Source: a virus. From it: DNA of 42,236 nucleotides. The stretch spans positions 1 to 42,236 of IMG/VR virus record IMGVR_UViG_3300050014_000806; one strand, written 5' to 3'. Under the pieces are notes generated by a model. It ran no database searches and was not told the origin of the DNA. It saw only the letters and a program-made list of their open reading frames with translations. Both the position numbers and the translations under genes were made by a program. Below, in pieces: positions 1,030-27,802 of the stretch; within the stretch, counting starts at the first letter, position 1, and each line of letters opens with the position of its first letter.

Positions 1030-1973
1030 TGATCGTTAGGGAAAGTTTGATAGGGTTTAATGAAGCTCAGGGGTTTACTCGTGAGGGAACACCAGTTGAA
1101 CAAATTGGAGTTGGAAGAATTGCAGTATTTCAGGAACTGCTGAAAGAGATAGCATATGATTCATTGGTAAAGAAGGGGGATTTTTCGATGTTTCCAACAA
1201 ATATGGGTGAAGTTACTCAAGACAAGATGTATATCATTGATACGAGGAAATTCATTTATGAATATGGAAATACTCCAAAAGATTCAGTCAAGTATGATTT
1301 GATGACTAAAATCATGGACAAAGTCCCCTCAATGAATCCCAATAAATTAGAACACAATGCTGCCGGGTGGGTTAGAGTATTTTTCACATTTAATAGAATG
1401 GATGAAATATGGAATGCTCCAAAGACTTGGATTAATGAACACACTTGGATAGAATTGCGTCAAATGGATGAAGATACCTTAGTTGAAAAAGCAAAAGAGC
1501 AGCTCACAGTTAATAGATGCATGGTTTTATCCACAGAGTATGGTTCTCCAAAACTACAAAAATGGGCTTTAGAGAATGGATGTACAAATGCAAACACAAG
1601 ATCAAATGAAGCTATTCAACAAGCTTCTAGAAGAGGCCAGCTTGAATTAGTAAGATTACTTTTAACCCATCCTGAAGTGGACCCAGCAGATACTACTATA
1701 GATGGTAAACGATATAAAAATGATGAACGTCAATATTGTGTAAGACAGGCTGCAAAAGAAGGATTTCCTTTAGTTGTAGAACTTCTTATGAAAGACAAAC
1801 GAGTGGATCCATCATATAGAAATAATTGGGCTTTGGCTCAAGCAGTAGCAAATCATCATATCGAAGTTTGCAAAGTTTTAGTAAGAGATCAAAGGGTAAG
1901 AGATAAAATAAATTATATGAAACCCGTTGATATAAAAAGATTCGATGAACTAAGGAGATCTGGTCAAGTATGA
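1029..1973 (+). CDS. Tagged ankyrin-repeat protein
   Basis: This 314-residue protein starts at an ATG overlapping the preceding TAA. It begins MIVRESL, followed by FTREGTPVEQIGVG, which is the window's recurrent tag (hydrophobic-x-Glu-Ser ... Phe-x-Arg ... Pro ... Ile/Val-Gly). Residues ~40-180 are unassigned. The C-terminal ~130 residues carry about three degenerate ankyrin units, recognisable from A-x-x-x-G-x-x-x-L-V-x-x-L-L and from the linker VDPADT/VDPSYR. Ankyrin repeats are protein-binding scaffolds. In this context I infer a virion-delivered or assembly-associated binding protein. It ends in an ATGA overlap with the next gene, so the two are translationally coupled. Confidence 0.7.
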   Translation: MIVRESLIGFNEAQGFTREGTPVEQIGVGRIAVFQELLKEIAYDSLVKKGDFSMFPTNMGEVTQDKMYIIDTRKFIYEYGNTPKDSVKYDLMTKIMDKVPSMNPNKLEHNAAGWVRVFFTFNRMDEIWNAPKTWINEHTWIELRQMDEDTLVEKAKEQLTVNRCMVLSTEYGSPKLQKWALENGCTNANTRSNEAIQQASRRGQLELVRLLLTHPEVDPADTTIDGKRYKNDERQYCVRQAAKEGFPLVVELLMKDKRVDPSYRNNWALAQAVANHHIEVCKVLVRDQRVRDKINYMKPVDIKRFDELRRSGQV

Positions 1974-2689
1974 AACTAGTAGAAGAAAATATTGCTCATT
2001 TTGTTCGTGGTGGCGATCCTAAAGCTGCCATGGGAATTGGTCGAGAAAAATTGATTGGAGATTTTATTGAAGAATACAATAAAAAATCTACAATGAATAC
2101 TTTTTCGAAGAAACTAACCATGGAAGACAAGCCCTGGATATTGGAATCTGCTATCAAAGCTGGCAGACCTGATATTGTTAAACTTTTAGTTACTGATCCT
2201 TCTGTGGATCCATCAGCAAGAAGAAATCATTTTTTAGATATTGCTTCTAAAGAAGGAAATGCTGAAATAATTCAAATACTTTTATCGGATCCAAGAGTTA
2301 ACCCAGCTGATCATCATAACATAGCTTTAGCTAATGCCGTCGAAAAAAATCACTTAGAAGCTGTTAAAGTTTTATTAGCTGACTCAAGAGTTAATCCAGC
2401 CGATTCTAAAATGGTATTAGACAATCAGTTTAATGAAACGCAGGTACCTAATTACATTATTAAAATAGCTGCTTTGGAAAATAATCTTGCAATCGTTCAA
2501 GAACTTTTAAAAGATCCTAGAGTTAACCCATCGCAAGCTTTAATAGGTGCAGTATCTAAATTGAATAAAGTAGGGGTTAAAGCCCCAAACTGGATTCCAA
2601 TGGTCGAATTACTTCTTAATAATCCAAGAACAGAAATAAGTTCGGCAAGAAGAGCATCAATTCAGAAATCAATAGATGAAAACAAATGA
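1970..2689 (+). CDS. Tagged ankyrin-repeat protein, paralogue of the preceding gene
   Basis: This 239-residue protein begins MKLVEEN, then HFVRGGDPKAAMGIG, a clear copy of the recurrent tag. From about residue 60 to the end there are four to five ankyrin units of 33-36 residues, with conserved ASKEGNAEIIQILLSDPRVNPA-type pattern split over positions 75-100 and again at 105-135. Each unit ends in (V)DP or (V)NPA/S. This is longer and more regular than the ankyrin part of the upstream gene, and the shared DPRVNP linker argues for duplication. It starts by ATGA overlap with its upstream neighbour. The target of the repeats cannot be read from sequence. Confidence 0.75.
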   Translation: MKLVEENIAHFVRGGDPKAAMGIGREKLIGDFIEEYNKKSTMNTFSKKLTMEDKPWILESAIKAGRPDIVKLLVTDPSVDPSARRNHFLDIASKEGNAEIIQILLSDPRVNPADHHNIALANAVEKNHLEAVKVLLADSRVNPADSKMVLDNQFNETQVPNYIIKIAALENNLAIVQELLKDPRVNPSQALIGAVSKLNKVGVKAPNWIPMVELLLNNPRTEISSARRASIQKSIDENK

Positions 2690-2713: not shown

Positions 2714-4270
2714 ATGAAGAAACAATTAGTATGCGAAACCCTACAAGATTATCAAATCAAAAAAGGGGATCTAAACGAAGCTATATTTAGCAAAGCAATA
2801 GGAGCTGTAAAGAAATTCTTCCAGAAACTTGGTAAGTTCTTTTTCTTTATGTTTAATGGTAAACCCGTTACAGAAGCTATAGCTCCGGTAAACGTTGGTA
2901 TTTTAACCAAGGCAGGATCCTTATATAAAGGTGTTTCCTATCTTCCTTCTCAAGCCGATAAAGATCTTGAACCAGGACTAAGTTCTCTTACTGAAGCACA
3001 GATTATGTCAAAAAGAGGTGGGGAGGATTCGGGCAATAAGACTAATAAAACTAATGAAAATCTTAATGAAGCTCGAATAACTCTAGATCACCCCGATAAG
3101 AACGTTCTTAATGTTGACAAGAAAGATCTTTATAGAAGAATTAGAATGGCTATCAAAAACCCAACCTCTAAACCTCTTATGATTTGGGGAGCACCTGGTA
3201 TTGGTAAAACCGCTATTGTTAAGGCAGTTCTATCAGCTAATTCAAAGGGGAGACTAATTGATGTTCAGACCTCTAAAATGGCTCCAGATGACTGGTCATT
3301 ACCAGCAACTTACGTTGTTGCAGAAGAAATTAAAGCAAGAGATATTCCTAAAGCTTGGTTACCTGTTTTTATAAAAAGCAATGACCCAGAAGAAAACAAA
3401 CGTAGAAATGAAATATGTAATGCTGGTGCAGGTGGAATCTTATTCTTAGATGAGCTCTCAAGAGCATCTGGTTCAGTTCAGAATACTTGTTTAAAACTTA
3501 TCGATGAAAGAATTATTGGGGATGCACAACTTGGAGACAAATGGGCAATCGTATCAGCTTCTAACAGAGCCGGTGACGATCCAGAAGGTGTTCAGAACTT
3601 CTCTACCGCTCTTGGTAACAGATTCTCCCAGGTTAACTACATACCTGATTTCAAAGGTTGGAAAGAATGGGCTATTGATAAAGTTGACCCACGTATCCTT
3701 GACTTCCTAGAATTCAACCAGGAATATTTCTATACACTTGATGATGATCCAGAAAAGAGTATCTTTGCATCCCCACGTTCATGGGAAGCAGCTTCAAAGA
3801 ACATTGCAGCTTTAATGCAAGATGCGAAAGATGAAGGTTACAGACCTACAATTAAAGATATTACAGGCGTAGTTGGTTCTGATGTTGGTGTTGATATTGC
3901 AACTGAATTTGCAACATTCTTAAAACTCCTTGAAACATTTAAGAAAGAAGACATACAGGAAGTTTTAACTAACCCAGGAAAAGCACGTATGCCTAAGAAA
4001 GCTGGTTCAGGATATGATCAGTCAGAAGCAAATGCTCTTATTTCATTAGTTTGTACAGCAACAAGAGGAAGAGACCTAACTCCCAAGGAATTTGAAAACT
4101 ATGTTGAGTACCTAATCAGACTTGATAATGCTTCACTTGCAACCCGTGGTTTAAAGATGATGATCGAAATTCACCCATACATTCACGAAGAGTTAGGTGA
4201 AGTTGAGGGAAGAGACAAATTCAAAAAAGGTATCGACGCATTTATCGCTAAGTACAAAGAGATCTTCTAG
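2714..4270 (+). CDS. MoxR-type AAA+ ATPase with tagged N-terminal extension
   Basis: This 518-residue AAA+ protein has Walker A GAPGIGKT (residues 159-166), Walker B ILFLDE (242-247), a sensor-1-like SASNRAGDD (N284) and a probable arginine finger in LGNRF (R303). The family is the MoxR/RavA-like ATPases, which remodel or activate partner complexes together with VWA proteins; a VWA gene lies at 1-1029. The ~120-residue N-terminal extension is unusual. It starts MKKQLVCET and contains five hydrophobic-x-Glu-(Ala/Thr) sites (E8, E22, E54, E94, E119), all resembling T4 prohead-protease cleavage sites. An amphipathic or hydrophobic stretch lies near residues 30-48. A weak promoter-like AAATATAAAAAATAA precedes it at 2691-2705. 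Confidence 0.85.
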   Translation: MKKQLVCETLQDYQIKKGDLNEAIFSKAIGAVKKFFQKLGKFFFFMFNGKPVTEAIAPVNVGILTKAGSLYKGVSYLPSQADKDLEPGLSSLTEAQIMSKRGGEDSGNKTNKTNENLNEARITLDHPDKNVLNVDKKDLYRRIRMAIKNPTSKPLMIWGAPGIGKTAIVKAVLSANSKGRLIDVQTSKMAPDDWSLPATYVVAEEIKARDIPKAWLPVFIKSNDPEENKRRNEICNAGAGGILFLDELSRASGSVQNTCLKLIDERIIGDAQLGDKWAIVSASNRAGDDPEGVQNFSTALGNRFSQVNYIPDFKGWKEWAIDKVDPRILDFLEFNQEYFYTLDDDPEKSIFASPRSWEAASKNIAALMQDAKDEGYRPTIKDITGVVGSDVGVDIATEFATFLKLLETFKKEDIQEVLTNPGKARMPKKAGSGYDQSEANALISLVCTATRGRDLTPKEFENYVEYLIRLDNASLATRGLKMMIEIHPYIHEELGEVEGRDKFKKGIDAFIAKYKEIF

Positions 4271-4286
4271 AAAATAATCTAGATAA

Positions 4287-4736
4287 ATGAATATTGTTCG
4301 AGAAAGAATATTGGAATTTCAGAGGGGCCAAAACCCCTCTGATGTTTTGAAATTGGGTAAGAAAAAAGAATTGGATGCATGGTTAAGACAGCATCTCCCT
4401 TCTGTATCTTACACAATCAATTCAGACTGGACTGTGGATCTTAAAAGAGATTTTATTATGCCAAAGAGTTCAAACATTATGTATGAGTTACCTGAATTTA
4501 TTCAGTTCAATGAATGTTTTGGAGATTTTTTAATCAGAGACCAATATCTTAAAACTATGAAAGGATGCCCGTATTTTATTCATGGGGATTTTATGGTTGA
4601 TGGTAATAAAATCGAGGATCTGGAAGGCTGTCCAAAACGTGTTGATGGAAACTTTTTCATCAAAAGAAATACTACCAAATTTACTAAAGAACAAATACAA
4701 AAACTTTGTCAGGTTGGAGAAATGATTATATGCTAG
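4287..4736 (+). CDS. Tagged small protein with LRR-like GCP repeats
   Basis: This 149-residue protein starts MNIVRER, then EFQRGQNPSDVLKLG, a divergent copy of the tag. The next segment, AWLRQHLPSVSYTIN, resembles QWLRKNLPEFRIS in module 3 of the nine-module protein at 17109-20426. The C-terminal half has two short repeats of the type K-x-x-x-GCP-x-x-(V/I)-x-G-(D/N)-F (GCPYFIHGDF and GCPKRVDGNF). I recognise these as the short LRR-like solenoid units common in large-phage hypothetical proteins. Function is unknown. The end overlaps the next gene's ATG by 7 bases. Confidence 0.65.
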   Translation: MNIVRERILEFQRGQNPSDVLKLGKKKELDAWLRQHLPSVSYTINSDWTVDLKRDFIMPKSSNIMYELPEFIQFNECFGDFLIRDQYLKTMKGCPYFIHGDFMVDGNKIEDLEGCPKRVDGNFFIKRNTTKFTKEQIQKLCQVGEMIIC

Positions 4737-5359
4737 TTCCTGAATCAATATTAGAGGTTCAAAATTTTGAACGGGGACCTATGAGTAAAGAAACTCTTGG
4801 AATTGGCCTTGAAGCAACCATTAATGAGTTTATGGAGGAACATTCTGGTGAACAGCCGGGATCCTGGGTTTATGATATTTTGGATAATTCAAATTTAGAA
4901 TTAGATACAGAGACTCGTAAAAAGTGGGCTCAATTTCTAATTACCATGCCTAAAAAATATGCTACAGAGGCTGATGAAAATCTTTATTATGTCTTGAAGC
5001 AAAATAATATCGAATGGATTCCTTACCTTCCTATTATGGGTAATGATTTTGGCTATACAGTAGAAGGGGACAAATATTATCTTCATTTTGGTGCTTGGCT
5101 TGATTTCAGAGATCTTTTTGATTCGCAGAGTAGAGATGTTAGTTTAGAATTTATAGGAGATGTTTTATGCGGGGAAGATTCTTACGAACATTTTGAAAGA
5201 GATATGGAAGAGTATGAAGATATTACTCAATCCGGCTGGTATTTAAGCAAAACCGTAGAAAAAGGAAATGTCCCAGCTCTTGAAGATTTAAAGACAACTG
5301 CTATAGAAATGGGGGCATCCCCAGAAAATGTTACGAGCTTAGACGATTTATTAAACTAG
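4730..5359 (+). CDS. Tagged protein of unknown function, start at ATG 4730
   Basis: I place the start at ATG 4730, 209 codons before the stop, because GGAGA lies 9 bases upstream and the protein then begins MLVPES, matching other tagged N-termini. A TTG at 4706 is less likely. The tag continues NFERGPMSKETLGIG. The rest is acidic with no family I recognise. It ends in TAG at 5357-5359. The same frame stays open beyond that stop for 111 codons of plausible coding sequence (see 5357-5473), so the intact protein may be longer, or may have been until recently. Confidence 0.6.
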   Translation: MLVPESILEVQNFERGPMSKETLGIGLEATINEFMEEHSGEQPGSWVYDILDNSNLELDTETRKKWAQFLITMPKKYATEADENLYYVLKQNNIEWIPYLPIMGNDFGYTVEGDKYYLHFGAWLDFRDLFDSQSRDVSLEFIGDVLCGEDSYEHFERDMEEYEDITQSGWYLSKTVEKGNVPALEDLKTTAIEMGASPENVTSLDDLLN

Positions 5360-5473: not shown

Positions 5474-5692
5474 ATGAAACATTTTGATTTTACTCAAAAA
5501 CCTGAATATAATGAGAAAGAAATTCTCGTAGGAGAAATTTCTAAAAAAGGATTAAAACTTCTATCATATTGTATTGCTACTGGTGATGAAAAAATAAAAT
5601 GGACTGTGCCTTCTGGTAGTGCATGGATGGGAGACTGGGAACCAGATGTTATAAATGATGCATTGTACAATGCTATGGGAGATATAGAATAA
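5474..5692 (+). CDS. Small unknown protein or 3' part of an amber-split gene
   Basis: Read from the first available ATG this is a 72-residue protein with no recognised domain. There is no ribosome-binding site ahead of the ATG. The coding frame clearly extends 38 codons upstream to the TAG of the gene at 4730, which suggests the true product is the C-terminal domain of that gene. It ends in TAA overlapping the next gene's ATG (TAATG), as elsewhere in this operon. Treat 5474 as a minimal start. Confidence 0.45.
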   Translation: MKHFDFTQKPEYNEKEILVGEISKKGLKLLSYCIATGDEKIKWTVPSGSAWMGDWEPDVINDALYNAMGDIE

Positions 5693-6930
5693 TGAAAAAA
5701 CTAGTTTGCGAATCGCTAGACCAATTATTTGAGAGTCCAGACTGGCTATCTCTTAATGGAAAGTATGACCCAGATGGTTATCCTTCTGATGCTGGCAAAG
5801 ATGTTGAGGGGGATAATTTTGAATTGGACTATGAAAGCGAAGATGCTCATCCATTTTGGATAGACGGAGAAGGAAAATTTCAATTTGGTCCTGCAAAATC
5901 TACACACCCTTATGGAGTATCTAGAAAAGATGGCATGTTTCCGGGCCGACTATGGTTTTATCATAAAATTATGAGTTTCTGGGAATATCCTGACAAAGAA
6001 GAATTCTTTGATATGGTTAAGAAAATGGGCGATGAACTCAAGTATTATTACCCAAATGATGATTACCGAATTATAAATGATCCAGAATGGCAAGTTGAAA
6101 TTATACCGGGCAATTCGGATATTGTTACAGATGATAATGGTATTATGCTTTCCGGCCCTTGGAGACATCAGGGTCAATTTCAATCTAAACTTATACCAAT
6201 TAAAGATTATCAATTTGGGGGAACCAGATCAGAAGAAGAATTGGGTAAAGAACATGCCAAATCTCCAATGTTAAAGAAAAAGAAAGTACCCCAGGGATGG
6301 GGTTCAACACATCCTAAATATCAGGAAAGGAGAGCTTGGAATATGGCTTCTCTTACTAGTGAAGGGGTGGCAGATAAGTATATGACCCAGCATTTTGGAA
6401 TAGCTGATCCAGACGAAGAATTTGATAAACAATACTTTATTCAAAAATATGGTAAACCGATTACAAAGGTTAAAAACGTTCCAATTTATAAAAATCCTAA
6501 GACCCTAGAAGGATTTGATAAAGGGGTTAGAGGAGTTGTGATGAACAATGGAGATTTATATCTTGCTTTCTCTCAGGAAGGACCAATTCATCAAACAATA
6601 ATCAATGCTCTTAAATCTGTTGGAGTAATAACCGGAAATACAGGTGGATGGGAAGATGTTGACGCTTTTAACGATTATGACTTTATTACCCTTCAAAGAA
6701 TATGGGGAAAGGATAAATTTGGTATTGGGGAGTCATATACTCTTCCGAAACCTAAACAAGACCCCGAAGGCAGAGCCAAAATTTTAAAATTATTCGAACC
6801 TTACTTATTAAAAGCCAAAAAGGTAAATTCGCAATTTGAGTGGGTTCTCGAACAAGTAAGAGTTGTCGCCAGGGGAACTCTTAATGCCACCGAATATGAA
6901 GAATTCAAATCCAAAGGTTCTGGAGCATAA
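5692..6930 (+). CDS. LVCES-tagged protein of unknown function
   Basis: This 412-residue protein starts at the TAATG overlap and begins MKKLVCESLDQLFE, matching the LVCE(S/T) N-termini of the ATPase at 2714 and the protein at 20433 but lacking the FERG...P...IG half of the tag. The body is rich in aromatic and acidic residues, contains several Trp/Gly segments (GWGSTHPKY, GNTGGWEDVD) and has no catalytic motif I can name. A lysine-rich KKKKVPQ segment lies mid-protein. Context suggests another member of the tagged set encoded here. Confidence 0.65.
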   Translation: MKKLVCESLDQLFESPDWLSLNGKYDPDGYPSDAGKDVEGDNFELDYESEDAHPFWIDGEGKFQFGPAKSTHPYGVSRKDGMFPGRLWFYHKIMSFWEYPDKEEFFDMVKKMGDELKYYYPNDDYRIINDPEWQVEIIPGNSDIVTDDNGIMLSGPWRHQGQFQSKLIPIKDYQFGGTRSEEELGKEHAKSPMLKKKKVPQGWGSTHPKYQERRAWNMASLTSEGVADKYMTQHFGIADPDEEFDKQYFIQKYGKPITKVKNVPIYKNPKTLEGFDKGVRGVVMNNGDLYLAFSQEGPIHQTIINALKSVGVITGNTGGWEDVDAFNDYDFITLQRIWGKDKFGIGESYTLPKPKQDPEGRAKILKLFEPYLLKAKKVNSQFEWVLEQVRVVARGTLNATEYEEFKSKGSGA

Positions 6931-6981
6931 ATAATTTGCAAAACATTTTTTTACTTGGGAAGTATTTTGTACATTTGCTGT

Positions 6982-7485
6982 ATGAATCACTTTCAAAGGG
7001 ATATGGACCCCAAACAAGCACTGGGGATTGGTCTTGGGCCCAAGATTAAAACAATGATGGAAGCTGAGGATAGTGTGTTTGATTATGAAAACTTTTATCA
7101 AGTATGGGAATGGGCTTTAAAAAAGAAGAAAGACTTCGTATTTCCATATATTGTTGGCATGAATGGAAAGAAGTGGGTCAATGGAGATATAATAGATGCT
7201 TCTGATAACAATAACGAATTGCTTTGGATTTCTATACAGGATGGGAATATGCAAGCAGTTAAAGCAGTTCTTACAATTCCCAATCTTTTTAGAGAAGAAA
7301 TACTTAAACTTGATCAGGGGACTTCTGAGTTAAAAGGTGAATTTTCAACAAGAAATATAAGTGTTCACGATAGTGATGGCAAAAGAGCTATGAGAGCTAC
7401 AAATTTTGGAGTCTTTGTTTCAAATGCTAAGAATAAAGAAACCAAAAATATGCTCATGAAATATTATAAAAAGGAAATTAAATAA
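6982..7485 (+). CDS. Tagged protein with a possibly damaged start
   Basis: From ATG 6982 the product is 167 residues and begins directly inside the tag: NHFQRDMDPKQALGIG. The usual upstream half (M..(I/L)VxES) is missing in this frame. A neighbouring frame just upstream encodes LLYESL, so a small indel may have separated the two halves of the tag; alternatively translation starts at TTG 6955. The remainder contains WEWALKKKKDFVFPYI and one ankyrin-like segment (LLWISIQDGNMQAVKAVL). The 3' end overlaps the convergent lysozyme gene by 8 bases. Confidence 0.55.
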   Translation: MNHFQRDMDPKQALGIGLGPKIKTMMEAEDSVFDYENFYQVWEWALKKKKDFVFPYIVGMNGKKWVNGDIIDASDNNNELLWISIQDGNMQAVKAVLTIPNLFREEILKLDQGTSELKGEFSTRNISVHDSDGKRAMRATNFGVFVSNAKNKETKNMLMKYYKKEIK

Positions 7486-8275
7486 GACCCTTTAAAAATA
7501 ATTCTCTTTCTTCTTCTCTTCTGGGTTCTAATCCCGGAAACTTAGGATCTACATTAGCAGTTAAAATGCTATCCGCAGCCTGCAAATAATCTTTATCTCG
7601 TAAAGATAAAATCATTTCAGATCCCCTTAGACCGTCTACCCCCATATTAAATGCCATGGAAACCATAGAATCCCACATATTCTGAGATATTTTTATATCT
7701 AATCCTCTGCTCTTCCATAGTCTGAATAGATCCCTAATTCCAATTTCAATAGTTTTTATATCTTCTCCGAATAATTTTGCAGCTTGTGCTTCAGAAATTG
7801 TTTGACCTTCTTTCCATTGAGATGATTCTTGAGGTTCTGCATGACCCCATCCTACTGTAATCATCCCATCCCCAATCGTATAAGCATCTAATCTAAGTTT
7901 TTCATGGTCTTTAATGAAAACCATTCCTTCCGGACTTGTTTTTAAAGTCATTGGATCCTGCAAAATATCATAATTTATTTTTGGACCATCTTCAAAATAA
8001 AGATCAAAAAGATTTTCAAATTTTTGCTGTATTTCTTTAGGTGTAAGAATTCTTTGGCTAGCAAGAACCCCAAATGTTGGATTATTCATGAGTTCCTTCT
8101 TTGAAGGAAGGTCTTTAAATCCCTTATTACTGGCTGTCATCAAAAACATTGTGGCAAGGATAGCAATTTTTTTAGCTTTATCCTTGATGGTATTGATGTC
8201 GAATTTTTCATTGAGTGTTTCCTGAGCTATAAATTCTTCATTTAGGAAGGAATACACAGATTCGTTTACTAGCAT
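7478..8275 (-). CDS. GH24 (T4-type) lysozyme with tag-like N-terminus and hydrophobic segment
   Basis: From the preferred ATG at 8275 this is a 265-residue muramidase. The catalytic region around residues 120-145 has H-E-K-L-R-L with Glu125, then IGDGMIT with Asp136 and Thr140, followed by VGWGH, the GH24 pattern. An upstream in-frame ATG at 8317 exists, but a promoter-like box lies between the two at 8284-8298. The shorter start gives MLVNES, matching the tagged proteins nearby. Residues ~37-49 are hydrophobic (IAILATMFLM), perhaps a signal-anchor. It could be a lysis endolysin or a virion-carried lysozyme; the tag hints at the latter. Confidence 0.85.
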   Translation of the reverse strand: MLVNESVYSFLNEEFIAQETLNEKFDINTIKDKAKKIAILATMFLMTASNKGFKDLPSKKELMNNPTFGVLASQRILTPKEIQQKFENLFDLYFEDGPKINYDILQDPMTLKTSPEGMVFIKDHEKLRLDAYTIGDGMITVGWGHAEPQESSQWKEGQTISEAQAAKLFGEDIKTIEIGIRDLFRLWKSRGLDIKISQNMWDSMVSMAFNMGVDGLRGSEMILSLRDKDYLQAADSILTANVDPKFPGLEPRREEERELFLKGLI

Positions 8276-8283
8276 GCCATGGG

Positions 8284-8298
8284 TTTTCTTTATATATC
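8284..8298 (-). promoter_or_regulatory. Late-type promoter box for the lysozyme gene
   Basis: The minus strand reads GATATATAAAGAAAA, one change from the box ahead of gene 25 on the other strand. It lies 9 bases upstream of the lysozyme ATG at 8275. It is similar to the T4 late consensus TATAAATA; activity is inferred. Confidence 0.5.
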
Positions 8299-8326
8299 TT
8301 TTTGGGGGAGGTTCCATTTAAACAGA

Positions 8327-16778: not shown

Positions 16779-17117
16779 ATGTCACTTGAACGTTTTTTTA
16801 GAGAAGATAAGGGTTGCCCCACAATTTCAGTTGGAAATACTGTTATACAGGTAGATAGTGTCGACTGGAGAAAACCATACGTCATTACTGTTGAAAGATT
16901 GGGTAACGAGATTCAATTAAAACTTGATGAAGATGCTGCAAAAAGAAATGTTACAGCAGTAAAATATTCGGGTCAGGATTTAGTTCCGGACTTGAGTCCA
17001 GAAAGTCTTCCAATTGATTCGAGGACGCATCTGTCTGTAGATGAAAATTATTTATATGTTTGGGTTCCGCAGGTTCAAAAATGGAAAAGAATGCCATTGC
17101 TAGATTGGTTAGGCTAA
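16779..17117 (+). CDS. Small protein closing the baseplate operon
   Basis: This 112-residue protein starts 2 bases after the adhesin stop. It looks all-beta (VGNTVIQVDSVDW, ITVERLGNEIQLKLD, ENYLYVWVPQVQKWKRMPL). The final VWVPQ..KWKR segment resembles attachment or fibre-tip peptides in phage tail proteins, but I do not recognise a family. Its last 9 bases overlap the convergent nine-module gene. Confidence 0.55.
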   Translation: MSLERFFREDKGCPTISVGNTVIQVDSVDWRKPYVITVERLGNEIQLKLDEDAAKRNVTAVKYSGQDLVPDLSPESLPIDSRTHLSVDENYLYVWVPQVQKWKRMPLLDWLG

Positions 17118-20100
17118 AGGATAATTAAAATAAAATTCCCAATTCTTGCTACTATCTGTAAAACTTCTTGCTAGACCATTGTCTTTTCCCCATTCCCATC
17201 CTTTCCAAGCTACCCAATATTTAAGAGTATGTTTATCGTCTAATTGTTTTTCAAGTACAATCCATTGACCTTTTGGACCAATCCATTTTTGAATAGGAAT
17301 GTATCCATCTTCGGGAGTATATTCTGTTCCAGATAAACCGGATTTTTCAAAGCTAAATTCTTTTGCAAAACGATCCATCTTAGAAATTTCTCTTTGATCC
17401 TCACTACCGATATCCATTTTTTCAAGTGGGGTTCCTTCACGATTAAAATGTACTGCTTCGAATAGATTCTCTTCTTGATCTTCATCAATGAATTCTTTTA
17501 GTTCAGCTAAAGCTGTTTTTGGGTCCCCGTGATGAAAAGACCTACGACTTATAGCTATAGCCAAAAAATTTCCGGCCTTGTGATTTTCCAAAACCAAAAT
17601 AGGCTCTCCTTTATAATCCCTAATAACTTCTATAATACGATATTCGTCTCTCCAGTTAGGAACAAGTTCATTGATATTCCAGGGAGTATTGTCTATGATG
17701 TTTTTATCAATTGCTGTTTGACCCACTGACATTTGTTTTTGCGGGGTTCCTACTCGAGTAAAATTAGCGGCTTCAGTAACAGATTCCAATCTGATTACTT
17801 TCATTTCTAGTTCATTAATGACCGCTGTTATATCTTTGCACCAGGTTTTTATTTCATCTTCTCCCTCTCTAAAATAATACACATAATGAGGAATTTCTAA
17901 TCCAGCTTCAAATACTAGAAAAGCACCATAAGTAATTTTACTATTTGATTTGAACTGTGCTTGAAGTATTTGAGCATCGGGAGCTAGTTGTGTAGATTTT
18001 TTATTTGTTACAACCTCAACTATCCCTGTCCCGAATTTATCCGCCATGTCATGAAGTGTTGAGAAAAGTAATTCTTTGTCATGCTGAATTTTTCTTCCTT
18101 TAATATCTCCAATTTGCAAAGTATCCAATGGATCCCCTTCCCTCTGAAAATAAACGTTTTCGTTTACTTTTCTAGCTTTGGATGCTTTAGGACTAATAAG
18201 ATATTCGTGACGTTCTTCTCCATCTGGATCTCCTCTAGATGTAAGATCTATAGCTTTAACTTTGTATTTTCCGGCTTCCCCATATTCATGAATAGCTTCT
18301 AAAATCTCTCTTCTTACAGATTGGCCAGGATAACAATAATAAGTAAAGCTTCCATCTTCATTTATGATGATTTCAGCCCCATTCCATTTTAAATAGTCTT
18401 CAATAAATTTTTTAAAACTTTCAGCTTGAGCTTCTCTACCAATCTTTAGAGCTTTAAAAGGATCTTCGTGACGTTCAAAATCTAAAGACTCGTTTTGGGT
18501 CTTCATTTTGCCATCCTTAATATCTTCATACATTCTCATGGTAGCTCTAATAATTGAGCCAGCTGAAAGTTCTTCTAACCATTCATCAAATACATTTAAA
18601 TCTTTAACACCTGAATTTTTGACAGATATTTTAGCATAATTTGTTTTATTTGGATCATGAGAAGGACCTGTCCATGATTTCTGTGTAAATTCAATGTAAT
18701 CTCCGTCTGATAAATTGATATACAATTCTGAACTATCTTCATCGGCTTCACCTTCAATGTGAGTAATTTTAACTCCATTGTAATTCCATCTCTTGGCTAT
18801 AGCTCTTTCATCATCTTCCATATTCTCAATATCCCCCGAGAATTCAACGTCAAAATGGAACATTCCAATATCCATAGAACGTATAGGATCCCCGCCTCTT
18901 TCAAAGTTAACGGATTCCTTCATTGTATTATGTTTAATCAATCTTTTTTCTCTTTGATCACGAGCATTTATTTTTCCTTTAATACTTTGAAGAGCTTCTG
19001 TTTCAGCTTTTTTCCAATCGCTTCTTAAGCCAGGATCTGAAGTAACGGCCATAATACCGCCAACAGCGTCCGAAATAATAATTAAAATTGGAAATCCCTT
19101 ATAATTTCTTATAAAAGTTCCTAGACGATAAACCTCCATAAAATTATCTGCCAAGCCCCAATCAATTTCTTGTATAAGTTTTTTATCTAAATAAGTTTGA
19201 CCAATCCCCATTGATTTAATGGGTTCTTGCCCTCTTTCAAAGTTAATAGATTCCTCAAGATTGTCATATTTCCATTCAATCTCCATAGAATAAACATCGT
19301 GTTTAATGTATCCAACATCCTGCAATCTGGAAATTCGGAATTCGGGCAAATTCTTTCTCAACCACTGATTAACTATTCCTTTGGCACTACCTCCTTGAAC
19401 ATACGGAGATACTTGTATACTTTTTCTAATATAATTATCATCGTCCACTATAGGCTCTCTCAGAAATCCAGGAAATTGTTCCTCTAGTGCTTTTTCCAAT
19501 TGTTTAAATTTGTTTATTCGTAGAGCCATTTGACCAATTTGAAGAGATTTAATAGGTTCTTGGCCTCTTTCAAAGTTTTGAGATTCTTTAAGATATGTTT
19601 TGTCCAAATATCCTTTAATTATATCAACATGAGTCATAAAAGCTCCGCCTTCAAGCATTAGACTGAACAAATCCCCTATAACAAATCCAATATTATTAAT
19701 ACCTTCTTTAAATGGATATTTTGCTACTTCTATTTTAATAAGATCTTCAAGTTCCTTTTCAGCAATATCTATTTCTTTAGATGCATGAATTGTGGATGGA
19801 GTCGAATCCGTCTTATCATATTGATCCAAAACATAATTATTATATTCAGATAAAGAACGAAATCCAGCTTTTTTTACAGCTAATTCTATTTTAGCCATAA
19901 CGGGTTTTACTTTTTCTTCAATGTCTTCTATGATATGGATAGCTAGTTCTTCGCTAGTCATATCCCATTGATATTTCTTACCAATTCTTAGTTTGTCTAG
20001 AGATTCTCCTCCTCGTTCAAAATTTATATCTTCTTTTAGCGGTTTTCCTCGCATTTTGTCTTTATTCTTTTCCCACTCTTTCCATGAATCATTTTCCTTT

Positions 20101-20426
20101 TGTATTTCTTTATCAATACTTCTTTTCAGATTAATTAAAGCTTGTTCTGGTGTTGGCTGATAATCCCCAAAAACCCCAACTCTTGAAATGGCACGAAATT
20201 GCCATGATCCCTGACTCTTATTCTTTAAAACAAGAATGGGGTATCCTCTATAATCTCTTATCAAGACAACAATATCGTATAGAAAAGCATGTTTTTCTAG
20301 ATCAATAGCCCAATCGGTTTCGTCCAGAATCTTTTGATCTTCGACTTGTGTGCCGATACCCATTTTTTTAATGGGGGCACCGGTTCGTTCGAAGTTCAAC
20401 TTCTCTGATATTGTAAGGGCTTTCAT
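17109..20426 (-). CDS. Nine-module tagged protein, candidate virion-cargo polyprotein
   Basis: This 1105-residue protein contains nine copies of the window's tag, each followed by one domain-sized segment of ~105-150 residues. The tag glutamates are E8, E132, E281, E392, E504, E646, E756, E885 and E990. In eight of nine the residue two before the Glu is Leu, Ile, Met or Val. The usual continuation is S-x-x-FERG-x-(D/E)-P-x-K-x-(L/M)-x-IG. The bodies of modules 1, 4 and 8 are related, sharing (I)R(D/N)Y(K/R)G-x-PIL(V/I) at residues ~56, 439 and 935. The others differ from each other. The hydrophobic-x-Glu core equals the T4 prohead-protease consensus, so I infer cleavage into nine mature proteins. 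No module has a recognised enzyme motif. Confidence 0.8.
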   Translation of the reverse strand: MKALTISEKLNFERTGAPIKKMGIGTQVEDQKILDETDWAIDLEKHAFLYDIVVLIRDYRGYPILVLKNKSQGSWQFRAISRVGVFGDYQPTPEQALINLKRSIDKEIQKENDSWKEWEKNKDKMRGKPLKEDINFERGGESLDKLRIGKKYQWDMTSEELAIHIIEDIEEKVKPVMAKIELAVKKAGFRSLSEYNNYVLDQYDKTDSTPSTIHASKEIDIAEKELEDLIKIEVAKYPFKEGINNIGFVIGDLFSLMLEGGAFMTHVDIIKGYLDKTYLKESQNFERGQEPIKSLQIGQMALRINKFKQLEKALEEQFPGFLREPIVDDDNYIRKSIQVSPYVQGGSAKGIVNQWLRKNLPEFRISRLQDVGYIKHDVYSMEIEWKYDNLEESINFERGQEPIKSMGIGQTYLDKKLIQEIDWGLADNFMEVYRLGTFIRNYKGFPILIIISDAVGGIMAVTSDPGLRSDWKKAETEALQSIKGKINARDQREKRLIKHNTMKESVNFERGGDPIRSMDIGMFHFDVEFSGDIENMEDDERAIAKRWNYNGVKITHIEGEADEDSSELYINLSDGDYIEFTQKSWTGPSHDPNKTNYAKISVKNSGVKDLNVFDEWLEELSAGSIIRATMRMYEDIKDGKMKTQNESLDFERHEDPFKALKIGREAQAESFKKFIEDYLKWNGAEIIINEDGSFTYYCYPGQSVRREILEAIHEYGEAGKYKVKAIDLTSRGDPDGEERHEYLISPKASKARKVNENVYFQREGDPLDTLQIGDIKGRKIQHDKELLFSTLHDMADKFGTGIVEVVTNKKSTQLAPDAQILQAQFKSNSKITYGAFLVFEAGLEIPHYVYYFREGEDEIKTWCKDITAVINELEMKVIRLESVTEAANFTRVGTPQKQMSVGQTAIDKNIIDNTPWNINELVPNWRDEYRIIEVIRDYKGEPILVLENHKAGNFLAIAISRRSFHHGDPKTALAELKEFIDEDQEENLFEAVHFNREGTPLEKMDIGSEDQREISKMDRFAKEFSFEKSGLSGTEYTPEDGYIPIQKWIGPKGQWIVLEKQLDDKHTLKYWVAWKGWEWGKDNGLARSFTDSSKNWEFYFNYPLA

Positions 20427-20432
20427 GCTTAC

Positions 20433-21173
20433 TTAGAATTTTCTGGCTAAATTCTGATCATTCTTTAGACCCTGCTTAATTATCGTGCGAAGATCTTCCG
20501 GGAATATTTTATATTCTGTTGAAAGTTTATTAACAACTGCTTTTGGTGCTTTTTCACCCAAAACTCCCCTAAGCTGATTGTATAAATCATAGGTAGCTTG
20601 AATAATTTTAGCATTTCTTTTCTGTATTTTTTCTCTTGTTTTTCTACCTTGATCGGATGTATCCTCAGCCCATTTGTCGGATCTTTCAGTAGTTGCATCC
20701 AAGTTTACAGCTTCCGAAGCTAATGAATATACATCTGCTGGCGACATTTTTTCAAATTCATCAAACGCATTAATTATCTTATCATATAAATCATTACCAA
20801 AGACTCCTTCACGATTATTTTGTAATAAAAGTCTGAATTTCGACAATGTGTAGCTAACTGTACGAGGTTTAAGATCTAATACATCTCCTAGTCTTGGAGC
20901 AGATAGTTTTTGCCAGTCTGTGATAGTTTCTTTGCCCATTTTTAGTGCATTACGTGTCAACCCGCTATCTCCTCTTCCTTGAGTATCTTCCGACCTTCCC
21001 ATAGCATCTTTCGCAGCTAAATACATGGCAGCTAATTGTGGCTTGGTTATAACATCATTGCCTCTTGATATAGCAGCTTGTTCGCCACTCGAATATTCTA
21101 TTTCGTTTTCTCCGTATAATTCTTCAAGAGATTCGCAAACAAGTTTTTCTGGGTAAAAATGGAAATTCATCAT
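20433..21173 (-). CDS. LVCES-tagged protein of unknown function
   Basis: This 246-residue protein lies 6 bases upstream of the nine-module gene. It begins with a short MNFHFYPE leader, then KLVCESLEELYGE, the tag's first half as in the genes at 2714 and 5692. The body is helical and charged. A segment SAPRLGDVLDLKPRTVSYTLSKFRLLLQN (residues ~91-119) looks like a winged-helix or similar DNA-binding helix-turn-helix, and the C-terminus is Lys-rich. A DNA-binding, perhaps DNA-packaged protein is possible, but no family is recognised. Confidence 0.6.
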   Translation of the reverse strand: MMNFHFYPEKLVCESLEELYGENEIEYSSGEQAAISRGNDVITKPQLAAMYLAAKDAMGRSEDTQGRGDSGLTRNALKMGKETITDWQKLSAPRLGDVLDLKPRTVSYTLSKFRLLLQNNREGVFGNDLYDKIINAFDEFEKMSPADVYSLASEAVNLDATTERSDKWAEDTSDQGRKTREKIQKRNAKIIQATYDLYNQLRGVLGEKAPKAVVNKLSTEYKIFPEDLRTIIKQGLKNDQNLARKF

Positions 21174-21289: not shown

Positions 21290-22147
21290 ATGTATAAGGG
21301 GATTATTTATTGTGCAACAAGTCCATCAAATAAAAAATATTATGGGCAATCTATCGGTAGTTTAGAAAAAAGGGTTAAAAGACATTATTCTTCTAGAAGT
21401 TCGAACGATAATACTATTTTTCATAATGCTTTAAAAAAATATAAGGATCAGATTTTATGGGAGACTGTGGAAGCTTATGAATTTGCAGAAAGAATTGATT
21501 TAATTAATAAATTAAATGAAAGAGAAATATATTGGATTGAAACAAACAAAACATGCATAAGCAAATTTGGAAAAGAATTTGGGTATAATATGACGGAAGG
21601 GGGTCAAGGTGTTAAATTTTATCATCATACGGAAGCTACAAAAGAAATAATTCGAAAAAAATTAAAAGGAAAACCCAAATCTTTAGAATCTAGAGAAAAT
21701 TACCGATTAGCTAATATCGGAGAGAATAATCCAATGTATGGAAAAGAAGGAGAATTACATCCTAGATTTGGTAAAAAAATGACTTTAGAAAATAAGGAGT
21801 TTTTAAAAGATTTATATTTAGATAAGACTTTCGAAGAAAGGCATGGAGAAAAAGAAGCTATAATAATAAAAAATAAAATATCTGAAAATAGAAGGGGAAA
21901 AGGACTTGGCGAAAAAAGCTTAGAGACAAAAGAAAAAATTAAAAAGAAACTTCAAAAAAGATTTGAGAATCAGAATGAAAGAGATAACATAAAAATTCTA
22001 ACTCGAAATGCTATGCAGCGTCCAGATGTGAAACAAAATCTAATAAATGGAATACGAAAATACTGGGCAGAGAAAAAAGCTAAAGAGGTAGTGGATTCCC
22101 GCCAGGAAAACCATACGTCTGCGCTCCTTTCGGTGCCCATGATTTAA
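21290..22147 (+). CDS. GIY-YIG homing endonuclease antisense in the tail operon
   Basis: This 285-residue protein has a GIY-YIG domain in residues 1-100 (GIIYCATSP, YYGQSIGSLEKRVKRHY, and NEREIYWIE with the catalytic-type Glu). It then has NUMOD3-like units (TEATKEIIRKKLKGK, NPMYGKEGELHPRFGKKM). It lies on the plus strand between minus-strand structural genes. Its last 68 bases overlap the 3' end of the gene at 22080, so its final ~22 residues are read antisense to that gene's C-terminus. It belongs to a different sub-branch from the genes at 8713, 35684 and 36286. It has its own late-type promoter box. Confidence 0.8.
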   Translation: MYKGIIYCATSPSNKKYYGQSIGSLEKRVKRHYSSRSSNDNTIFHNALKKYKDQILWETVEAYEFAERIDLINKLNEREIYWIETNKTCISKFGKEFGYNMTEGGQGVKFYHHTEATKEIIRKKLKGKPKSLESRENYRLANIGENNPMYGKEGELHPRFGKKMTLENKEFLKDLYLDKTFEERHGEKEAIIIKNKISENRRGKGLGEKSLETKEKIKKKLQKRFENQNERDNIKILTRNAMQRPDVKQNLINGIRKYWAEKKAKEVVDSRQENHTSALLSVPMI

Positions 22148-25100: not shown

Positions 25101-25610
25101 AAGGCCTGCTAGATCTGTAGCAATTCTGGATGTTTCGACTTTAAGATCCAAATCACTTTGCTCATCTGCAACTCTCATAAAATCGTCCTCAGTAAGATTC
25201 TGATCTCCGAGTAAGGCCATAAGAGCATTTGCTTGATTATCGTATGCACTTGGGTCTTCACATTGTAATAGAATATCCGAAGTTAGAGAATTACCAAAGT
25301 CCTGATCAACATAATGAATGAATTGCTGTAGATCTGGACTATGCTGAACATAGTTATTTACATCATCATCGGTAATATTATTGGGGTCTTGGATATAAGC
25401 AAGTGCAGGATCAGAACTTTTACTTAAAAGCCCCTGAATTTTTTTCTGAAGTAATTTCTGAAGATATATGAGTAATGGAGTTACGGCAGCTAAAGCCGCA
25501 AGCTTAAGAGCGATAAGAAGATTCGGCTTTTTTAAAAGGTTTTTGAATTTCGTTATCTCTGCATTGAGTACGCCCAGTGCAGCAGCTATTAATTTACTTT
25601 TTAGGCTCAT
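22080..25610 (-). CDS. Very large tail protein with membrane-like segments
   Basis: This 1176-residue protein is encoded in the tail/baseplate operon downstream of the spike and one tagged gene. There are hydrophobic segments at ~31-50, ~177-195 and ~261-274, and a longer hydrophobic, Pro-rich region about two-thirds of the way along (GFPPPIGPIPFPTVYIPI and WGMIVLGLTITGIYPFPWILF). Long helical, Lys/Asp-rich stretches lie between them. Size and hydrophobic segments would suit a tape-measure or DNA-injection protein, but I do not recognise a family. The 3' end ends in TAG inside the antisense nuclease gene and may have been replaced during its insertion. The start overlaps the upstream gene by 17 bases. 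Confidence 0.6.
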   Translation of the reverse strand: MSLKSKLIAAALGVLNAEITKFKNLLKKPNLLIALKLAALAAVTPLLIYLQKLLQKKIQGLLSKSSDPALAYIQDPNNITDDDVNNYVQHSPDLQQFIHYVDQDFGNSLTSDILLQCEDPSAYDNQANALMALLGDQNLTEDDFMRVADEQSDLDLKVETSRIATDLAGLISKINGILPWAFMAYMIILKVKEFLTQNDYPSPYRGKYIQRLIRTLTAVLKARIRQEGQAASKIIPGAVGLAKDELNQINTMLNTLKKLDTIIVGSLLATFVYLRNRHILQQAALKSFAETAGAQSCIPTPRMLTDAETTPDPSAYTQTTPTLAQLETCLTSPDTNIVPHTPIEDKLLNLSCEVVLNPDVSINQVSGEDTATKALFENKTLKPFKILVSANDTLDVHKPFAVFDGNNIYPPLNGVVEKIDVNKIYTMDIVEPANNDIGEKISKLQDKYAEQVDIKGFIREFYIPSFYPVMLKDAPGIDPSINAEQLKKVIYKTGGVITRWNGIMTSYKAQIKDWQKRTNTIAGKDNVKTKCDQENVEGIKTELDNSDDTLFSNLNSDAGNGIAQARVTAADPKELVMIEFYFTLLQDLIAYYDQTSQTVVTFIKQIQDFLTNRYFLDQYSLQKIKDKVNSYCKELAQGMNFTTKNTPDFYAVMKTKYDAATNSQPNQKSQAAKDYLTSLTTKNTKLSSTQIDAEINLILFLFNFSLTIQDLLKTGFAPKITRLQETQNEGIWIEGYFNNLWKRYKALPGEIDQATADLDALNQVFESYSIINIDNEEYRWYTLDTDPCEAPDESDPYLSPKTKMRYSDKKYWLRYCAFATLASVVNPATAWSTGFPPPIGPIPFPTVYIPIKAFQAKWGMIVLGLTITGIYPFPWILFVNWSTQNHIPLADPVTLIQNEVDVLKKEITKQIQNFKKITLKNYLKKLKVDVDNAKAVVDELVIEKRNHKAAKPKRDRTVKPYIDIPRYTDALAKWNTNGAAIDERTLDAKRKQMVAETKYKIVQDAISGAPVKDHPDPTIKSMEKAEQTINSQFDKLDVIIQKVDDVLAPLPINTKPETANFAFTIKNPKPVINFAKDIDQTIAQGPLDKIIANFELNNADFMNTNYGSVLSKSVVNYKSYKATLSASMTTLIQKDPFPKYENLKPTNLPYMAFLLKSWAPKGAQTYGFPGGNPLPL

Positions 25611-26721
25611 AAGGATTCTTGTATGATTTCCTCCATTGCGGATCCATCCATCTGCCTTTTTTCTTCAATATTTCAAATCGATCAACATCCATCCACTCTT
25701 CTTCAACTTCAGTTACACTTTTACGTTTTAATTCTGGCATAATTTCTACCCATAATTGATTTGGATTCGTTTTGTCTTTTTCATTTCGCATCAAGGAAGA
25801 GCCATACCAAATGGCTAAAGAATCTTTTTCTTCGGGGGTAAGATCTTTATACTTTTCAACTTTTAATACATTGCAAAGTCCTCTTCCTTCTAAATAAGCA
25901 GGAGCAAATTGTCCAACACCTGGAGTAGATCTTCCTATTCCAAGTTTTTTAAGAGGTTCTCCTGTACGTTCAAAATTAACAGATTCCCTTATACCTCCAT
26001 TTGGATCAAAAGCTGCTTTGAAAGCATCCCAATACGGTGAACTAACATAGACTATGAATTTACTTCTCCAACTTCCCCCTCTTTTCATAATATCCCTATG
26101 TTCTACTTCACCTTCAAAATAATTTGGGCTAAGACATTGGTAAAGATAATCCGTGAATCTTCCGTTGCCATTATAGTCATCGATACTCAACCAGACTTCA
26201 TCTTTGTTACTCATGATACTAATTGAACCAATTCCTGGGGATAATCTAAGACAATTTAATCCTTTTTTAACTTTGTCGTATATTCCAAGACTCAATGCAT
26301 CAAATGGTTCTTTGTGTCTTTCGAAGTCCAAACTCTCTTCCATTTTTATAAAATGAAAAGAGGTAGGGATTTCTTCAAATATATGTTGTAATTCTTTTTT
26401 TACTTTAAATCTAATCGTGTATCTATTAGAGGTTTTTTCCTCAATTTGGCCTTTACCATCGAAATACTGATCCAAACCATATTTTTTAATCAAGCCATTA
26501 ATATAGTTTTTTCCTCCCTCGCCATAAAAACAAAAAGAATCCTCACCTGATGGATAAAAACTATACATAAATCTTGGATCCCCTAATCCTGTTCCCCCAA
26601 TCATTTCATTATCCACAAAAGATCTTAATTGGCTATAGATCTTCTTTTTTATGCCAATATTCAAAGCGTCTATCGGGTTCTGACTTCTTTCAAAATCTAG
26701 AGATTCTCTAACTATTTTCAT
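25594..26721 (-). CDS. Three-module tagged protein
   Basis: This 375-residue protein has three tags: MKIVRESLDFERSQNP (Glu6), MEESLDFERHKEP (Glu129) and IRESVNFERTGEP (Glu246). Each is followed by a segment of ~115-130 residues, and in each the residue two before the Glu is Ile, Val or Met. The first two bodies look related in length and in a YING/YNGNG-like middle; the third differs and ends in a basic WRKSYKNPYEPKK. This is a smaller version of the nine-module protein and is likewise inferred to be cut into separate products. It lies between spike and large tail protein, with a 1-base overlap with the spike gene. Confidence 0.7.
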   Translation of the reverse strand: MKIVRESLDFERSQNPIDALNIGIKKKIYSQLRSFVDNEMIGGTGLGDPRFMYSFYPSGEDSFCFYGEGGKNYINGLIKKYGLDQYFDGKGQIEEKTSNRYTIRFKVKKELQHIFEEIPTSFHFIKMEESLDFERHKEPFDALSLGIYDKVKKGLNCLRLSPGIGSISIMSNKDEVWLSIDDYNGNGRFTDYLYQCLSPNYFEGEVEHRDIMKRGGSWRSKFIVYVSSPYWDAFKAAFDPNGGIRESVNFERTGEPLKKLGIGRSTPGVGQFAPAYLEGRGLCNVLKVEKYKDLTPEEKDSLAIWYGSSLMRNEKDKTNPNQLWVEIMPELKRKSVTEVEEEWMDVDRFEILKKKGRWMDPQWRKSYKNPYEPKK

Positions 26722-27491
26722 TACTGCGAAATTAATACGTTAGTTGAGGTAGCTGCTTGTTGAGCTGCTTTTACTAAGCCAACATTGACTCCTGGTGTTT
26801 GAGGCATTTTAGCATCAATTGCTGTTGCCATAGTTTGTAACAAAGGAAATAATATTTCTGCCATTACAGCATGGTTATAAGGCCCAGGTCCTAGCTTAGT
26901 TACTTGGTTACCTGCTGCCTTTACTTCATCAGCTGTAACTTCTACTTTAGCTGCGGCAGAGATAGCAATTTCATTCTTGGTAACAATACTCATCTTATCT
27001 CCGTTTAGCTGGATTAGGGATTCATGATTAGCATGCTGAATCGTAATCATATTATCTGGAGAGATCTGAATAAAACTGCCACGATAAAACATTTGAAATC
27101 CTCTTTGACGCTGATAAATAACGTTTAATTCTTCATCGGGGTCATAAAGTAGAACGTGGGTTCCATCGTAATCATTTTTGATCTCATCTATAAGCTGAGT
27201 ATCAATATTTTGAATAGTTGTGTATTCTGGAGAATATAAGTCCCCGTTATTAAACTGAACCCTTACAATCTGACCAATTTTTGGAGTCGAAATTGACCCT
27301 GCTCCATCTCCAGCAAATATAGTGGAGTTAATTGGAACAGCCCATGGAAGATCCTTAGAATTTAAGTTATCAAATAACCTAAATACTCTTACTTGTGCTC
27401 GTCCTGAAAAAAGTGTATCCACATTGTTTTCGATAATGCCTAACCAGTCATTATCATGTAGATCTTTCATTTGTAAGTGTAGACTTTCCAT
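26721..27491 (-). CDS. Baseplate spike protein, gp5/gpV-like
   Basis: This 256-residue protein has an N-terminal OB-fold-type region (residues ~15-100: LGIIENNVD, GRAQVRVFRLFD, STPKIGQIVRVQFNNGD). These are hallmarks of gp5/gpV/VgrG spike proteins. It is followed by beta-helix-like repeats (ITIQHANHESLIQLNGDKMSI and TADEVKAAG regions) of the needle. There is no lysozyme domain between them, unlike T4 gp5; lysozyme activity may be supplied separately by the gene at 7478. It lies in an operon with the hub-like protein. Confidence 0.65.
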   Translation of the reverse strand: MESLHLQMKDLHDNDWLGIIENNVDTLFSGRAQVRVFRLFDNLNSKDLPWAVPINSTIFAGDGAGSISTPKIGQIVRVQFNNGDLYSPEYTTIQNIDTQLIDEIKNDYDGTHVLLYDPDEELNVIYQRQRGFQMFYRGSFIQISPDNMITIQHANHESLIQLNGDKMSIVTKNEIAISAAAKVEVTADEVKAAGNQVTKLGPGPYNHAVMAEILFPLLQTMATAIDAKMPQTPGVNVGLVKAAQQAATSTNVLISQ

Positions 27492-27802
27492 TACTCTTTA
27501 AATTTGTTGTAATATTTTGTAAGAATTCTATCGAATTTATCTATTTCTTCTGGCCACATTTCCTCAAAGCATTTAAAAGCATTTCCCCAACCACAGCTTG
27601 CTAATAATCTTTCTGGAATGGCAGCACTAATTTCATTGGAGAAACTTTTTCTTTCAACGCCAAGATTAAAGTGTAAAACTTTTTTATACATTGCTTCTAG
27701 CTCTTTCTCAGTTTTCTTATGACCAATATTAAGAGTTCGAAGAGGATCGTATTCGTTTCCTCGTTCAAAATTTACTTTTTCAAATATGAATTCGGCTCTC
27801 AT
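27491..27802 (-). CDS. Small tagged protein inside the tail operon
   Basis: This 103-residue protein begins MRAEFIFEKVNFERGNEYDP and then LRTLNIG, the full tag with I-F-E as the putative cleavage site. The body is a compact helical domain (KKTEKELEAMYKKV, ERLLASCGWGNAFKCFEEMW) with no known family. It is coupled on both sides: ATGA overlap with the tube-like gene upstream and a 1-base overlap with the spike gene downstream. Tight coupling to structural genes argues for co-production during virion assembly. Confidence 0.65.
   Translation of the reverse strand: MRAEFIFEKVNFERGNEYDPLRTLNIGHKKTEKELEAMYKKVLHFNLGVERKSFSNEISAAIPERLLASCGWGNAFKCFEEMWPEEIDKFDRILTKYYNKFKE

Follow-up and report, generated by a model that had tools for sequence, protein, structure and literature searches.

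A single open reading frame (ORF) of an uncultured virus, analyzed over the 42,236 nucleotides of IMG/VR record IMGVR_UViG_3300050014_000806 (positions 1 to 42,236; hereafter the window), carries nine copies of a ~20-residue tag, each opening a protein unit of its own. We put at roughly 55% the probability that each of the nine units is a cargo protein bearing a prohead label and that they would be made as one chain, separated at hydrophobic-x-Glu (h-x-E) sites by a prohead protease of the Peptidase S77 family and ejected. This reading builds on the repeats, the modularity of the units, the conservation and avoidance of the putative cut site, and the protease and capsid site of a relative, all of which are observed, as well as on a prediction that the tags flanking one unit are unfolded. 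To judge from its genes, the source is an uncultured large phage related to the T4-type huge phages.

Tagged units and their distribution

The ORF starts with ATG, runs for 1105 codons without an internal stop (Table 1) and carries nine tags of the pattern F-x-R-x3-[PS]-x3-[LM]-x-[IV]-G, with the F at residues 12, 136, 285, 396, 508, 650, 760, 889 and 994 and with 19–43 bits against a hidden Markov model (HMM) of the tag. The nine-tag frame reported by the initial annotation is upheld by these results, as is the occurrence of [LIVM]-x-E four residues ahead of the F in eight of the nine tags (strictly L or I in five). With a slash marking the predicted cut, the junctions of tags 1 to 9 read ISE/K, LKE/D, LKE/S, LEE/S, MKE/S, QNE/S, VNE/N, VTE/A and LFE/A. 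Consecutive tags are 105–149 residues apart. The domains of 105–150 residues described earlier correspond to the units with their tags included (124, 149, 111, 112, 142, 110, 129, 105 and 123 residues for units 1 to 9) but not to the bodies without tag, which have about 80–125 residues. Units 1, 4 and 8 carry paralogous copies of a single domain with 28–39% identity, while the remaining six units have nothing in common except the tag, and no Pfam or PHROG family matches the chain. A recent tandem duplication of the tags is ruled out, because only a single pair of them reaches 80% DNA identity.

Seven further ORFs of the window, one of them with three tags, also bear the tag and had been overlooked in the initial annotation. 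Two DNA patterns, FERGxDP...(L/I/M)GIG and FERGx(D/E)PKx(A/S/T)(M/L/I), located it in about 40 IMG/VR contigs, to which a third pattern added none. The collection from about 35 IMG/VR contigs comprises 165 non-redundant tags (106 N-terminal and 59 internal), a lower bound given that copies were counted once; the 133-kb contig G005 by itself has about 37. Chains with 2, 3, 4, 5 and 6 tags were seen, and the nine-tag chain is the longest. What had been proposed as a single self-contained cassette is instead one carrier of a genome-wide label. The same search, which found 37, 20, 6 and 9 tags in positive controls, found none in the whole genomes of Lak-A2, Lak-C1, LR756500, LR756501, LR756502, LR745206, PTm1, pT24 and MaF61, and the tag was not found in G001, a 323-kb relative by its tail genes. 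Because it is absent from the genomes of named relatives while the positive controls give matches, the tag marks one clade.

Among the 50,697 phage records of INPHARED, tblastn found no match to the nine-tag chain and none to the consensus tag, the latter being a weak absence for a 25-residue motif near the detection limit; with two other chains as queries, tblastn matched only short parts of the bodies away from the tag, or nothing at all. A search for related loci with the entire nine-tag chain found none. Bacterial and archaeal genomes held just three scattered single matches to the tag pattern, in unrelated bacteria and probably by chance, and PADLOC returned only a single candidate family, matched by six members. 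Searches of the open literature turned up neither the FERG tag nor a phage cargo polyprotein.

Tags either stand N-terminally in small single proteins, whose genes often form arrays with ATGA overlaps, or lie inside chains of 2–9 units, and unit-body families occur standing alone and as the first, middle or last unit of chains. Single-tag proteins and chain units are similar in size. At the close junctions of neighbouring tagged ORFs, the overlap is exactly 4 nt in 22 of 39 cases and 1 nt in 5 of 39. The locus of the nine-tag chain is syntenic in G005, where between homologues of the ORFs at 20433–21173 and 16779–17117 lie four ORFs that overlap or abut and bear one tag, one tag, one degenerate tag and four tags; the set can thus be encoded either as a single chain or as several genes. 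Together with the unit families encoded as separate genes, this split locus supports the presence of several independent proteins in one frame. The junction of unit 2 and tag 3 (KGYLDKxYLKESxNFERG) is kept in a chain of contig G006, the differences between the two at codon positions 1, 2 and 3 numbering 52, 37 and 72, respectively.

In 103 single-tag proteins, Pfam recognized ankyrin repeats (seven), GNAT (two), a 2'-5' RNA ligase/2H phosphoesterase (one) and a leucine-rich repeat (LRR; one), the rest being unknown; in the GNAT and 2H proteins an internal tag comes after the recognized domain. On two different contigs (L155:1008-1634, minus strand; L131:13780-15018, plus strand) an internal tag and another unit come after a GNAT acetyltransferase domain, and in L140:584-1486 (minus strand) a 2H phosphoesterase-like domain with two H-x-T motifs is followed by an internal tag.

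Predicted cut site, protease and structure

The label consists of two elements, a short leader that ends in h-x-E and has the consensus h-x-E-[SNA]-h, and the stretch FERGxDPxxxMxIG. An exact h-x-E is found at the tag offset in 50 of the 59 non-redundant internal tags, against a chance of 2.4% per position for [LIVMF]-x-E at that offset in the same proteins. The E itself is present in 95% of the internal tags and is followed by S in 64%; a hydrophobic residue stands two positions before it in 86%, one before in 5% and three before in 22%. The last G of M-x-I-G is invariant (59 of 59) and the next position is unconstrained, and the spacing from E to F among tags is 0, 3, 4 or 5.

Were h-x-E/[SAN] a cut site, its avoidance by cargo bodies would be expected. 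The observed-to-expected ratio of this site is 0.81 in cargo bodies vs 1.32 in untagged proteins of the same contigs, a log ratio of -0.49 (95% confidence interval -0.80 to -0.21) from a comparison in which several patterns were tried and paralogous units are not fully independent. The controls h-x-D/[SAN] and h-x-K/[SAN] show no avoidance, with log ratios of +0.30 and +0.14, respectively, and the depletion of h-x-E/[SAN] in bodies against shuffles alone is weak (P 0.10). As an identifier of cargo the leader alone is weak, leader-like starts in PTm1, pT24 and Lak-C1 being only mildly above expectation.

A Peptidase S77 protein, of the T4 gp21 family, is encoded in the tag-bearing contigs G005, G010 and G018 with scores above the curated cut-off, and that of G005 is a head maturation protease by PHROGs. 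In G005 and G010 the protease is fused to a scaffold-like part of 550–650 residues; the fusion is also present in G001, and the S77 frames of Lak-C1, PTm1 and pT24 are long as well (531–597 residues). The scaffold-like parts of G005 and G010 contain 9 and 10 h-x-E/[ASNT] sites where 3.3 and 3.5 are expected (P 0.004), some of them, such as EVVKESI and ELVSESK, in the style of the leader. The gene that follows the protease-scaffold fusion in both contigs encodes a gp23-type capsid protein (PHROG 138 and a PDB gp23 match) that reads HALNE/AEMGG, with the N-E invariant in five relatives at identities down to about 33%. The cut of T4 gp23 itself is FLTE/AEIGG.

In an AlphaFold2 model of unit 4 with both flanking tags, built on a shallow alignment of 10 sequences (unit 4 and nine relatives), residues about 40 to 120 have a predicted local distance difference test (pLDDT) score of about 90 or more, while the tags are mostly below 50 despite holding the most conserved columns; the domain helix begins right after the last G of the tag. 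The model of the LRR-like single-tag protein, from a likewise shallow set of 17 sequences, places residues 1–13 below 50 pLDDT and starts the first helix of the domain with the P-x3-L-x-L-G half of the tag. Foldseek found nothing below E 0.06 for the unit-4 model in PDB. A tag buried in its domain would have spoken against the initial annotation, and the model suggests that, in the single chain unit examined, the tag is not part of a buried core.

Weighing the readings

From these sequences, we propose that the label, with FERGxDPxxxMxIG as the putative address, would bring both the chain and the related single-tag proteins into the prohead, that the S77 prohead protease would separate the units during head maturation at the Glu sites, the h-x-E of the leader being the predicted cut, and that the cargo would be ejected along with the DNA and then act on the host, in the manner of the T4 internal proteins and Alt. 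The processed cargo polyprotein of the initial annotation is sustained in part by the comparative data, i.e., units that are separate or chained, an h-x-E that is both retained and avoided, and the S77 protease and capsid site of a relative, but neither as a single cassette nor with a plain T4 propeptide. The likeness of the tag to a propeptide of the T4 gp21 type holds for the [LIVM]-x-E of eight tags; it fails for the rest of the tag, which is not simply such a propeptide because the best-conserved residues (F, R, P, M/L, I and G) come after the predicted cut.

That position of the conserved residues also weighs against processed prohead cargo, as do several other observations. Tag 6 (QNE) departs from the hydrophobic-x-E rule, the lone one in the chain to do so. 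About 20 N-terminal tags start with M-N-F-E-R-G or similar and have no leader, while the AAA ATPase at 2714–4270, the ORFs at 5692–6930 and 20433–21173, the lysozyme and several G001 proteins have a leader without FERG, so the one element may act without the other. A binding strand could equally account for the alternating hydrophobic pattern. The tagged genes sit among tail genes, and a tail location may therefore apply. The window has neither an S77 protease nor a capsid gene, being a 42-kb fragment without the head cluster.

The main rival, which we regard as unlikely, takes the tag for a short binding motif and the chain for an uncut string of beads that binds a common partner, e.g., the scaffold, a tail part or the host surface. 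It would suit conserved text that runs well beyond the Glu, an alternation h-x-E-x-h-x-F that could form a strand, and chains of 2 to 9 units that would supply multivalency, but it agrees poorly with a motif whose P3 and P1 are fixed while P2 is free, with the variable E-to-F spacing, with the avoidance of the site by cargo bodies, with the occurrence of leader and FERG without each other and with the separate genes at the same locus of G005. Next in order, and less probable again, the label may be an address to another place (tail or baseplate, membrane or replication compartment), with or without cleavage. The interleaving of tagged genes with baseplate and tail genes in both the window and G005 is in line with this, and so are the leaders of the AAA ATPase and the lysozyme; however, the leader matches a prohead-protease-type site that is also present in capsid and scaffold proteins, and comparable short T4 leaders target the head core (PMC9026906).

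It is more doubtful still that the chain is cut at another position, for instance behind the M-x-I-G glycine, or by a protease of the host, with the tag as a removable spacer. Although the invariant Gly with a free residue after it and the unit-4 helix that starts directly behind it would fit, no protease of that specificity was identified, a relative encodes both an identified candidate enzyme for the Glu site and independent substrates, and half of the tag in the LRR-like family belongs to the first helix of the domain. Very improbable, finally, is a nine-unit fusion that is an accident with no role of its own, either an assembly error or a decaying fusion of an ATGA-coupled array: fusions would be easy given the ATGA overlaps, and the locus is divided among several ORFs in G005, one of which seems to have lost an internal stretch, but the frame is open for 1105 codons, chains of 4–6 tags recur in several contigs, and G006 keeps the unit 2/tag 3 junction with changes that are in excess at third codon positions.

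More tentatively than for the nine-tag chain itself, we suggest that a T4-related clade of large phages may use a transferable, genome-wide virion label on dozens of cargo proteins, with polyproteins of up to nine units that would be split inside the prohead and an address that would become N-terminal after cleavage. If true, the phage head would have a natural multi-cargo loading system in which a label of ~20 residues is placed on unrelated folds, single or chained, and the injected cargo of a whole phage clade could be listed from sequence alone. The ankyrin, GNAT, 2H phosphoesterase, LRR-like and unknown domains would then be candidates for host take-over and counter-defence, and the tag would be a portable one for protein packaging tests. 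A testable question is whether tailed DNA phages make cargo polyproteins.

Neighbouring genes and known systems

Table 1. Positions of the nine-tag chain, other tagged or leader-bearing ORFs and further features, in window coordinates unless a contig is named.
Feature	Position	Strand	Remark
Nine-tag chain	17109..20426	-	ATG start, 1105 residues
Tag 1	20352..20411	-	ISE/KLNFERTGAPIKKMGIG
Tag 2	19980..20039	-	LKE/DINFERGGESLDKLRIG
Tag 3	19533..19592	-	LKE/SQNFERGQEPIKSLQIG; junction common to G006 chain
Tag 4	19200..19259	-	LEE/SINFERGQEPIKSMGIG
Tag 5	18864..18923	-	MKE/SVNFERGGDPIRSMDIG
Tag 6	18438..18497	-	QNE/SLDFERHEDPFKALKIG; no hydrophobic residue two before E
Tag 7	18108..18167	-	VNE/NVYFQREGDPLDTLQIG
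Tag 8	17721..17780	-	VTE/AANFTRVGTPQKQMSVG
Tag 9	17406..17465	-	LFE/AVHFNREGTPLEKMDIG
Unit 1	20055..20426	-	domain family of units 4 and 8
Unit 4	18939..19274	-	domain family of units 1 and 8; confident alpha-beta domain and disordered flanking tags in AlphaFold2
Unit 8	17481..17795	-	domain family of units 1 and 4
Second chain, three tags	25594..26721	-	tags at 26653-26712, 26284-26343 and 25933-25992
Single-tag protein	27491..27802	-	starts MRAEFIFEKVNFERG
Single-tag ankyrin protein	1029..1973	+	
Single-tag ankyrin protein	1970..2689	+	4-nt overlap with 1029..1973
Single-tag LRR-like protein	4287..4736	+	residues 1-13 disordered in AlphaFold2
Single-tag protein	4706..5359	+	
Tag without leader	6955..7485	+	MNHFQRDMDPKQALGIG
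AAA ATPase, leader without FERG tag	2714..4270	+	MKKQLVCETL
Leader without FERG tag	5692..6930	+	MKKLVCESL
Leader without FERG tag	20433..21173	-	KLVCESL; directly upstream of nine-tag chain; 85% identical in G005
Phage lysozyme	7478..8317	-	leader-like LVNESV near N-terminus
GIY-YIG-like ORFs	8713-9378(+), 21290-22147(+), 35684-36283(-), 36286-36960(-), 37858-38529(-), 41013-41636(+)		by eye
S77 protease-scaffold fusion	G005 L106:768-3302	+	
S77 protease-scaffold fusion	G010 L118:3915-6260	-	

The window contains baseplate and tail genes of the T4-like type, and the nearest named relatives of these genes are Lak megaphages and phages of Tenacibaculum, Chryseobacterium and Flavobacterium. In the lysozyme, LVNESV (kept in G005 as MFIAESV) is followed by a hydrophobic stretch and then by the catalytic domain. 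By eye, a VWA-like protein and a MoxR-like AAA ATPase, encoded at 256–1029 and 2714–4270 (both plus strand), respectively, flank the two tagged ankyrin ORFs. At least six GIY-YIG-like endonuclease ORFs, also recognized by eye, are dispersed in the tail gene cluster, and similar ones are found in related contigs; that at 35684–36283 and the next gene, at 35253–35687, share about 20 first codons (MKFYITVEGxQKLKRSFLNL), as if a mobile gene had been inserted after the start and had re-created the 5' end (35253–36283, minus strand). Between conserved tail genes, an ORF at 15229–16776 (plus strand) with a TTG start encodes a repeat protein of 515 residues that is LRR-like by eye and has no homologue in the related contigs compared.

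In T4, gp21 cleaves after L/I-x-E, Alt is cleaved at ITE-6 and ten residues suffice for the packaging of IPIII (PMC9026906, PMC5694885). The tagged proteins resemble IPI-III and Alt in a short N-terminal leader ending in hydrophobic-x-Glu and in diverse small cargo, and leaders such as MIVKE and MKLVRE are about as short as the six residues of Alt. An S77 protease, a gp23-type capsid protein and a scaffold with a similar site, here in a syntenic relative, are further likenesses. However, T4 has one label per protein and targeting text upstream of the cut, while the tagged phages have up to nine labels per chain and text that is mostly downstream of the predicted cut. Pfam, PHROG and tblastn of the 50,697 phage records found no homology of the chain to T4 IPI, IPII, IPIII or Alt. 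By analogy, the tag system appears to work like T4 internal-protein targeting, yet we do not file it as a member, because it lacks that homology and most of its conserved text follows the predicted cut.

Judged by tail and capsid genes, the named phages most closely related are the Lak megaphages and the large phages of Tenacibaculum and Flavobacterium, of which Lak-C1, PTm1 and pT24 share the S77 protease but have no FERG tag. This kinship would point to a putative host among the Bacteroidota. The ejection proteins of phiKZ and SPN3US are similar in that a Glu-specific prohead protease (gp175 and gp245, respectively) acts on several related head cargo proteins whose propeptides have several sites; they differ in propeptides that are mostly long (20–254 residues in SPN3US), in an A/S/G-x-E site and in one gene per cargo (PMC10052503, PMC5694885). 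The phiKZ gp175 is of the S80 type, a branch of protease families different from S77. Finally, a parallel in layout may be drawn with RNA viruses and retroviruses, whose polyproteins hold several proteins in one chain with repeated cut sites. One chain with repeated predicted cut sites is likewise encoded here, but in a double-stranded DNA tailed phage, in which the same label precedes every unit and is also found on separate genes.

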